Origin: Jiangella alkaliphila
GTDB taxonomy: Bacteria > Actinomycetota > Actinomycetes > Jiangellales > Jiangellaceae
Assembly (NCBI RefSeq): GCF_900105925.1
Contig: NZ_LT629791.1
Span: 2,081,278 to 2,145,277, forward strand
Direction of reading: 5' to 3'
DNA length: 64,000 bases
Shown: positions 29,902 through 31,914 of the stretch, piece by piece
Position numbering within the stretch: the stretch's first letter is position 1
How the letters are laid out: each line of letters begins with the position of its first letter
The notes under the pieces: generated by a model
Told to the model about the DNA's origin: nothing
Databases searched by the model: none
The model's input: only the letters and a program-made list of their open reading frames with translations
Program-made: the position numbers and the translations under genes

Positions 29902-30954
29902 TCAATAGGCGGTCATCCCGAGCGTCTCCTGCACGTCCGCCAGCGTCGACTCCGCGATCGACGACGCCCGCGCGGCGCCCGCGGACAGCAGCGACCCCAC
30001 GATCCCGGCGTCGGCCGCGAACGCCGCCCGCCGCTCCCGCACCGGCCGCAGCTCCTCGTTCACGACGTCGATGACCAGCGCCTTCAGCAGCGCCGACCCG
30101 CCGCCGCCGACCTGCGCCGCGACCTCCTCCGGCGCGACGCCCAGGCAGAGCGCCGCGATCTCGACCAGCGACGACACCCCCGGCCGCCCGGCCGGGTCGT
30201 AGGTGATGTCGCGACGAGGATCGGTGACGGCGCGCCGGATCAGCCGCGCCGTCTCGTCCGCGGTCGCCTTCAGCGCGATCGCGTTGCCGCGGCTCTTGCT
30301 CATCTTCCGGCCGTCGACGCCGAGCAGCCGCGGGGTGGGGGACAGCAGCGCCTGCGGCTCGCGGAACACCGCCCGTCCGCCGGCGTACCGCTCGTTGAAC
30401 CGCCGCGCGATCACCCGGGTCTGCTCGACGTGCGGCAGCTGGTCCTCGCCGACGGGGACCAGGTTCCCGTGGCAGAACAGGATGTCCGCCGCCTGGTGGA
30501 CGGGGTACGTCAGCAGCAGCCCGCTGACCGACGCCAGGCCCGACGCCGCCGCCTCGTCCTTCACCGTCGGGTTGCGCTGCAGTTCGGCCACCGTCGTCAG
30601 TGAGAGGAACGGCAGCAGCAGCTGGTTCAGCGCCGGAACCGCGCTGTGCGCGAATATCGTCGTCCGGTCCGGGTCGATGCCGGCGGCGAGGTTGTCGAGG
30701 ACCACCTCGCGCACGTTGGCGGCGATCTCGCCGGGCGACAGCCGGTCGGTGATCACCTGGTAGTCGCCGACCACGAGGAAGGTCTCCACGCCCTGACGCT
30801 GCAGGCGGACGCGGTTGAGCAACGTCCCGAAGTAGTGGCCGAGATGCAGCGGACCGGTCGGCCGGTCGCCGGTGAGGACGCGGTACCGCGCCGGCTGGGC
30901 CGCCACCTGGGCGGGATCGGCCAGCAGCGGGACGTCGAGAGTGGTGAGGGTCAT
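29902..30954 (-). CDS. trpS: tryptophanyl-tRNA synthetase, type II
   Basis: 350 aa from ATG 30954. Class I motifs TGDRPTGPLHLGHYFGTL (HIGH) and DGRKMSKSRGNAIAL (KMSKS). The wording around the HIGH motif and ADILFCHGNLVPVGEDQLPH fits the second bacterial TrpRS class (Deinococcus TrpRS-II type) rather than the housekeeping GxQPTG form. Such copies are often regulated or give resistance to tryptophan analogues. Expression appears to be controlled by the leader region 31002-31086. Convergent with the sigma-linked membrane protein gene. Confidence 0.92.
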   Translation of the reverse strand: MTLTTLDVPLLADPAQVAAQPARYRVLTGDRPTGPLHLGHYFGTLLNRVRLQRQGVETFLVVGDYQVITDRLSPGEIAANVREVVLDNLAAGIDPDRTTIFAHSAVPALNQLLLPFLSLTTVAELQRNPTVKDEAAASGLASVSGLLLTYPVHQAADILFCHGNLVPVGEDQLPHVEQTRVIARRFNERYAGGRAVFREPQALLSPTPRLLGVDGRKMSKSRGNAIALKATADETARLIRRAVTDPRRDITYDPAGRPGVSSLVEIAALCLGVAPEEVAAQVGGGGSALLKALVIDVVNEELRPVRERRAAFAADAGIVGSLLSAGAARASSIAESTLADVQETLGMTAY

Positions 30955-31001
30955 GACGCTCTCCGTTCGGTGGGCAGAGCCACCGCGAGAGCTGTCACCT
31001 G

Positions 31002-31086
31002 ATCGGCCGCCGTCGCGGCGGCCGATGAGCATGCTGAAGGGGGCCGCCTACGAAGGCAGCCACCACACCAGCACGAGGGACTTCAC
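31002..31086 (-). promoter_or_regulatory. tryptophan attenuator upstream of trpS
   Basis: On the minus strand a 12-codon leader starts with GTG (31086-31084), encodes VKSLVLVWWLPS with two tandem Trp codons (31060-31065), and stops with TAG at 31050-31048. Between it and trpS lies a perfect 11-bp stem ATCGGCCGCCG / CGGCGGCCGAT (31002-31026). TAGGCT ends 6 nt before the GTG, so the leader peptide is probably leaderless. This is the layout of ribosome-mediated attenuation: Trp starvation stalls the ribosome at WW and prevents the terminator. Confidence 0.72.
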
Positions 31087-31109
31087 CCCTCCAGCCTACC
31101 GTGCCGGGG

Positions 31110-31691
31110 TCAGCCGATCGGAGCGCAGTTCGCCCCGAGCTGCGTCATGCCGGCGACGAAGCCGGCGGTCAGCTCGGCGGCCTGGGCGACCTGCTCGGGC
31201 GTCGCCTCGGCGGAGCTGTCCGTCAGCGCCGTCCACGCCTGAGTGGCCTGGTCCCCGACGGCGACGGTGGCGCTGGCCTGCGCCTGCTCCGCCTCCTCGG
31301 CCGGCAGCGGCACGTCGTGGACGGCCGCGACCAGCGCGCTCGTCCCCGCCTGAACCGCGTCGAGGTTGACGACGTCCAGCCGGGCCTCGGCGCCCTGCGC
31401 CATGATCGGCTGCTCCGCCGCCACCGTCGTGCAGGCGTCGGTGATGCCGGTGGCCCAGTCCGCGAGCGTCCCGGACGGCCGCGGGTCGCGGTCGGCGGCC
31501 GAGTCCCCCGACCCGCCGCTGCTGGACGCGACGAGCATCGCGCCGGCAACCGCCGCCACCAGCAGGAACGCCGCGGCCACCGCGAGGGTGAGCTTGGTGC
31601 GGCGCGGCGGCGGGCGGTGGGCGACAGCCGAGGGGACGTCCTCGAGCAGCTTCACTCTCACACCTTTCGAGCTGACGTGGTTCCGGGCCAT
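31110..31691 (-). CDS. membrane-anchored secreted protein
   Basis: 193 aa from ATG 31691 (a GTG at 31655 with AAAGG before it is a good alternative). A basic N-terminus with PPPRRTK precedes one hydrophobic helix (LTLAVAAAFLLVAAVAGAML). The outer part is helical and Ala-rich with two Cys (TDACTTVA, GANCAPIG) that may form a disulfide. No family recognised. Confidence 0.6.
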   Translation of the reverse strand: MARNHVSSKGVRVKLLEDVPSAVAHRPPPRRTKLTLAVAAAFLLVAAVAGAMLVASSSGGSGDSAADRDPRPSGTLADWATGITDACTTVAAEQPIMAQGAEARLDVVNLDAVQAGTSALVAAVHDVPLPAEEAEQAQASATVAVGDQATQAWTALTDSSAEATPEQVAQAAELTAGFVAGMTQLGANCAPIG

Positions 31692-31914
31692 CACTCGTGC
31701 CGGAACCCCTCGCCCCCCGTGGACCGGCGCCACTTTAGGCCATGCGGCCGGCTGGCATGGCAGATACCCGTTTGTGCGCAGCGCATCGGGGCGGGACAAA
31801 CCGGACAGCCTGCGGTTAAACCTGCCGACGTGTTCGGCTTGCCTCCCCACGCGGGCGGGTTTCGGGAACTAACCTCCGAGGTGTGAGGCATCCGGTTCCC
31901 CTGCTCCCGATCAC

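Follow-up and report, generated by a model that had tools for sequence, protein, structure and literature searches.

The window, a 64-kb stretch of DNA from the soil bacterium Jiangella alkaliphila, carries on its minus strand a gene for a tryptophanyl-tRNA synthetase (trpS), which is preceded by a short open reading frame with two adjacent Trp codons and by a series of sequence segments (arms 2 to 5) with overlapping pairing possibilities. In the order of transcription, the features are:

31098-31093, minus strand: -10-like box TAGGCT, 6 nt upstream of the leader GTG (leaderless geometry)
31086-31048, minus strand: leader open reading frame MKSLVLVWWLPS followed by TAG; GTG start, 12 sense codons
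31065-31060, minus strand: tandem Trp codons TGGTGG within the leader open reading frame (putative sensor)
31048-31042, minus strand: arm 2, GGCGGCC; pairs with arm 1 in the ribosome-free state and with arm 3 in the antiterminator
31026-31013, minus strand: arm 3 with loop, ATCGGCCGCCG(CGA); three possible partners, arms 2, 4 and 5
31012-31002, minus strand: arm 4, CGGCGGCCGAT; 3' half of a perfect 11-bp stem, no U-tract after it
30988-30978, minus strand: arm 5, TCGCGGTGGCT; complement of arm 3 plus loop (3:5); in addition forms the 5' strand of a hairpin that pairs the Shine-Dalgarno sequence
30964-30961, minus strand: trpS Shine-Dalgarno (SD) sequence GGAG; predicted hairpin with an upstream CTCT, the pairing not being beyond chance in shuffles
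30954-29902, minus strand: trpS, auxiliary type-II-like tryptophanyl-tRNA synthetase, 350 aa; ATG start

The leader codons read GTG AAG TCC CTC GTG CTG GTG TGG TGG CTG CCT TCG TAG, and GCGGCCCCCTTCAGCATGCTC lies between the TAG and the stem. The stem itself, ATCGGCCGCCG-CGA-CGGCGGCCGAT, spans 31026-31002 and is located 47 nt upstream of the trpS ATG (30954), with CAGGTGACAGCTCTCGCGGTGGCTCTGCCCACCGAACGGAGAGCGTC in between. Hence, the 12-codon leader with tandem Trp codons, its start just after a -10 box (with a gap of 6 nt) and the perfect 11-bp stem ahead of trpS, all described in an earlier note on this DNA, are present. Judged from the sequence, the predicted transcription start is the G of the leader GTG (31086); the promoter scan found no promoter with a -35 consensus at the leader. 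The gene upstream of the leader (31110-31850, minus strand) has no Pfam match, and since its 3' end lies approximately 11 nt before the -10 box its read-through would enter the attenuator.

The trpS product scores above the trpS equivalog cut-off (TIGR00233; Pfam PF00579) and its closest named relative is that of Jiangella anatolica (91% identity). Besides the leader-bearing gene the genome encodes a housekeeping trpS (35% identical to it), and a second trpS is also present in all 11 other Jiangella genomes searched. In the tree, which has long branches, the leader-bearing TrpRS groups with Deinococcus radiodurans TrpRS II and apart from the housekeeping TrpRS (100/100), and the same enzyme is the best match among solved structures (PDB 1yi8/2a4m, 255.8 bits). 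This places it among the actinobacterial auxiliary (TrpRS1/type-II-like) TrpRS, and its earlier designation as type II is thus fairly well supported by tree placement and structure match. Unlike these shared traits, the distance between the two enzymes (branch 2.1) and the absence of linkage between trpS and a nitric-oxide synthase (NOS) family gene set Jiangella apart from D. radiodurans. The NOS-family gene is found in the same genome (G000:C1:5528410-5529453; L113), approximately 3.4 Mb from the type-II-like trpS. A role of the Jiangella trpS in drug resistance or nitro-tryptophan metabolism, as had been suggested, would be a link by analogy, and the unlinked NOS-family gene speaks neither for nor against the nitro-tryptophan idea.

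To define the leader we used a signature consisting of a WW mini-ORF of ≤25 codons with an ATG or GTG 6-7 nt after TANNNT. When the two strands of the 64 kb were searched, exactly one leaderless-type WW mini-ORF was detected, and this is the trpS leader. Among 100 homologous loci the signature was detected upstream of trpS in 73; dinucleotide shuffles gave a mean of 0.03/100, and neither the reverse complements nor the interior of the genes contained it (0 each). In the wider scan the spacing between the -10 box and the leader start is 6 nt in 53/73 and 7 nt in 19/73 (TANNNT at 6-7 nt in 72/73), i.e. the geometry is shared by nearly all of these relatives, and four further Jiangellaceae loci have a like arrangement with a CATA-type -10 box. 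The leader is kept in all 12 Jiangella genomes, WWLPS being identical in 12/12, and the 161-nt leader folds better than 200/200 shuffles (z = -4.7). The WW leader and the stem before trpS are therefore more than chance, and the conservation of both in relatives, proposed in the earlier note as a check, is borne out by the 73 loci and by arms that covary across actinobacteria (see below).

Presence of the leader also follows the number of trpS genes. Another trpS was found in 30/30 tested genomes with a WW leader, while in genomes without it the leader-type TrpRS is the only trpS in 17/23, two copies being present in the other 6/23 (Fisher p about 3e-9 with phylogeny ignored, a significance that relatedness inflates, and with draft genomes in the count that could conceal a second trpS). 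In four of the six two-copy genomes without a WW leader there is instead a leaderless leader containing one Trp codon, e.g. MKRTACLCWRPS. Since the leader tracks spare status (30/30 vs 6/23), it belongs to the enzyme as a spare, and with the leader present on the spare TrpRS and absent on the sole TrpRS, attenuation looks like a silencer of the back-up until the housekeeping TrpRS fails. For Bifidobacterium, Collinsella and other single-trpS genomes our data suggest that the former spare has taken over the housekeeping role, with loss of its attenuator. A sole, type-II-like trpS without a Trp leader is present in Bifidobacterium (L102), Collinsella (L101) and Eggerthellaceae (L080), and likewise in Brachybacterium (L034), Luteimicrobium xylanilyticum (L068) and Georgenia (L071).

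The arms of the leader can be arranged as a classical mutually exclusive set, 1 to 4. Arm 1 lies in the leader near TGGTGGCTGCCT and forms a helix with arm 2 (AGGCGGCC plus CAGCATG); arm 2 (GGCGGCC) has arm 3 (GGCCGCC) as its alternative partner, and arm 3 alternatively pairs with arm 4. When partial transcripts of 72-80 nt were folded with a ribosome on the Trp codons (modelled by masking up to about nt 36), 2:3 forms with -14.5 to -16.2 kcal/mol, and 3:4 nucleates when the ribosome is placed at the stop codon or left out. For the full leader at equilibrium 3:4 wins in every ribosome state; the choice must consequently be kinetic, as in other attenuators. The 2:3 pairing beats shuffles at p ≤ 0.05 in 62/77 leaders, and arms 2, 3 and 4 change in concert across actinobacteria in at least four sequence classes (arm 2/3/4): GGCGGCC/GGCCGCC/GGCGGCC, GAGCGGCC/GGCCGTTC/GAACGGCC, GACGGCC/GGCCGTC/GGACGGCC and CAGCCCG/CGGGCTG/CAGCCCG. 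Native pairings were better than those of arms exchanged between loci, for 2:3 (p = 0.0024 in the Jiangella clade, 0.0002 in the other set) as well as for 3:4 (p = 0.0002 in both sets). The locus thus has a short open reading frame with Trp codons, MKSLVLVWWLPS, predicted to encode a leader peptide ahead of a Trp gene, and an antiterminator and an off-stem that exclude each other, the choice being set by ribosome position according to partial-transcript folding and covariation.

From the computed anatomy, exclusive pairings, covariation, leaderless geometry and association with a second trpS we infer a transcription start, ribosome stalling and a direction of control, and consider it very probable that leader-peptide attenuation responding to Trp-tRNA controls trpS. 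The transcript would begin at the leader GTG. With ample Trp-tRNA the ribosome would reach the UAG and cover arm 2, such that stem 3:4 forms and expression stays low; the 3:4 stem would presumably act by stopping transcription although it has no U-tract. With scarce Trp-tRNA the ribosome would stall on UGG UGG, cover arm 1 and leave arm 2 free to capture arm 3 on its emergence, 3:4 would come too late and trpS would be expressed. The spare TrpRS would accordingly be inducible by shortage of charged tRNA-Trp, caused by Trp starvation or by a poisoned housekeeping TrpRS.

How the off-state is brought about is less clear-cut. In an intrinsic-terminator attenuator the off-stem is followed by a U-tract; at the Jiangella trpS the stem is present with no U-run after it, and the terminator scan found 0 sites. 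The number of T residues in the 10 bases past the stem is 0-3 in 18/19 Jiangellaceae loci, and commonly 4-7 in relatives from Streptomyces, Actinomadura and Saccharopolyspora. With neither a U-tract nor a terminator-like site, intrinsic termination in Jiangella is doubtful. Of the transcription attenuation by Trp that the earlier note had proposed, Trp-codon-controlled attenuation with a leaderless leader and exclusive, covarying arms 1-4 thus stands, while termination by the 11-bp stem is not established. The loci that have no U-tract, which belong to Jiangellaceae, Oerskovia, Promicromonospora, Arthrobacter, Agreia, Cryobacterium, Nocardioides, Nocardia and Mycolicibacterium, sit in one supported branch of the tree.

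In this clade arm 5 is located 1-12 nt before the trpS SD (6-12 nt in 17/18 representatives) and is complementary to arm 3 plus the bases of the loop that separates arm 3 from arm 4. The native 3:5 pairing is stronger than the swapped one (-20.3 vs -15.6 kcal/mol, p = 0.0002, kinship inside families being uncorrected in the arm swap test), and the loop bases join the 3:5 pairing in 18/18 representatives. The 3:5 swap test was not significant for the loci with U-tracts (p = 0.08). Taken together, the 3:5 pairing is more than a side effect of the likeness between arms 5 and 4. Arm 5 may serve as a second off-hairpin or as a translational anti-sequestor. With respect to the SD, forcing 3:5 instead of 3:4 opens it by >0.1 in 14/23 loci of the clade (Oerskovia 0.00 to 0.52); in the Jiangella genus loci tested forced 3:5 does not open it (0.25 to 0.26 in the window), and equilibrium folding under ribosome masks leaves SD openness in the window unchanged. 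Selected sequestration of the SD in Jiangella was considered and set aside, as the value is not beyond dinucleotide shuffles (0.25 vs 0.21-0.34 in most genus loci). As a group the relatives have an SD value below that of their controls (0.17 vs 0.33).

Is the leader then needed for control at all, and if so, at which level would the stall be read? In high-GC sequences such as these stems and paired SDs are common, as our shuffle controls showed, and the leader peptide could be incidental, the stem an ordinary structured 5' UTR and trpS constitutive; given leader conservation, arm covariation and the tracking with trpS copy number we regard this as highly improbable. As a refinement of transcription attenuation rather than an alternative to it, arm 5 could form a second off-hairpin (3:5) behind 3:4, i.e. 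a back-up stop in an attenuator with poor terminators. Arm 3 is common to the two hairpins and 2:3 prevents either of them, which agrees with the direction of control; moreover, 3:5 is as strong as 3:4 in Jiangella (-22 to -25 kcal/mol) and the arms covary. However, no U-run is present past arm 5 either, and its constant position by the SD suggests translation; we consider a back-up stop somewhat unlikely.

That position leads to a form of leader-peptide attenuation acting on translation instead of transcription, where, in the clade without U-tracts, arm 5 would shut the SD unless captured by arm 3. A stall (2:3) would hold arm 3 off arm 4 as long as arm 5 has yet to emerge; thereafter arm 5 would invade via the loop bases as a toehold, giving 3:5 and an open SD. 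Consistent with this are the missing U-tract after the stem, the covariation of arm 5 with arm 3 plus loop (p = 0.0002) near the SD in 18/18 representatives (1-12 nt), and the >0.1 opening in 14/23 clade loci on forcing 3:5. Nevertheless, we find it unlikely, since forced 3:5 leaves the SD unchanged in the Jiangella genus loci tested and their SD is not closed beyond the level of shuffles. Furthermore, simple pairing order predicts a closed SD in the stalled state, because 2:3 frees arm 5 for the SD; a translational switch would hence require strand displacement by arm 5. Speculatively, and with still less confidence, the Trp attenuator in one clade of auxiliary trpS genes (Jiangellaceae, Nocardia, Nocardioides and Micrococcales) might have been rebuilt without an intrinsic terminator. 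Through its pairing with arm 3 plus loop, the SD-adjacent arm 5 would then have converted a transcription attenuator into a translational (or dual) switch that is kinetic, driven by a toehold and responsive to the same leader-peptide stall.

Regulators of other kinds were also looked for. The Rfam scan of the 64-kb window gave only tRNAs above threshold, the dauA RNA motif (RF04311) being rejected at 22.7 bits vs a gathering score of 45, and T-box matches were found neither in the window nor in 18 loci without a WW leader. No leader was seen before the Jiangella trpE-like gene, the start of which is uncertain. SCO3334 of Streptomyces coelicolor is activated by WblC (PMC7157823); a WblC/WhiB7 box is absent in Jiangella and present in 3/77 loci overall. 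The Jiangella leader resembles the enterobacterial trp leader (RF00513) in its tandem Trp codons and its 1:2 / 2:3 / 3:4 logic, but it has no Rfam match, precedes another gene, has a leaderless start and lacks a U-tract.

Attenuation of an auxiliary trpS is already known in Streptomyces. In 2010 Vecchione and Sello reportedly demonstrated it by experiment for trpRS1 (SCO3334 type), the indolmycin-resistant auxiliary gene of this genus. Attenuation has also been predicted for trpS2 of S. avermitilis (PMC1262725), and RNA-seq of S. lividans revealed leaderless leader-peptide starts, including that of trpL2 before trpS (PMC8079986). The Jiangella locus shares with the Streptomyces trpRS1 attenuator the gene type, the leaderless leader with Trp codons, arms 1-4 with competition of 2:3 and 3:4, and the second, housekeeping trpS; it differs in having WWLPS, another arm sequence, no U-tract and a covarying arm 5. 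Most of the Streptomyces-type loci carry a T-rich tail, and for these as a set the arm 5 signal does not reach significance. What is new here is therefore the different stem, the absence of a U-tract and the extra covarying arm. Our data widen the range of trpS attenuators from a few Streptomyces to many actinobacteria, and provide a concrete case for how high-GC attenuators might work without U-tracts, with an extra RNA arm that can be tested.

Other arrangements near the trpS SD were observed among the relatives. Pairing of arms 4 and 5 as a translational link was rejected, with p ≤ 0.05 in 13/77 loci, mostly of Actinoplanes or Streptomyces type, and absence in Jiangella. In 20/58 non-Jiangella loci (e.g. 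L039, L044, L093 and L105) the trpS SD is paired with sequence past the attenuator stem beyond most shuffles. Finally, Actinoplanes-type loci and one Streptomyces group have a second copy of arm 3, GGGCCGTCC, near the SD that is complementary to arm 4 (p 0.003-0.013); this arm lies between the terminator and the SD in L046, L049, L050, L082, L083, L086, L091, L092, L103 and L109, and it differs from arm 5 of the Jiangella clade.
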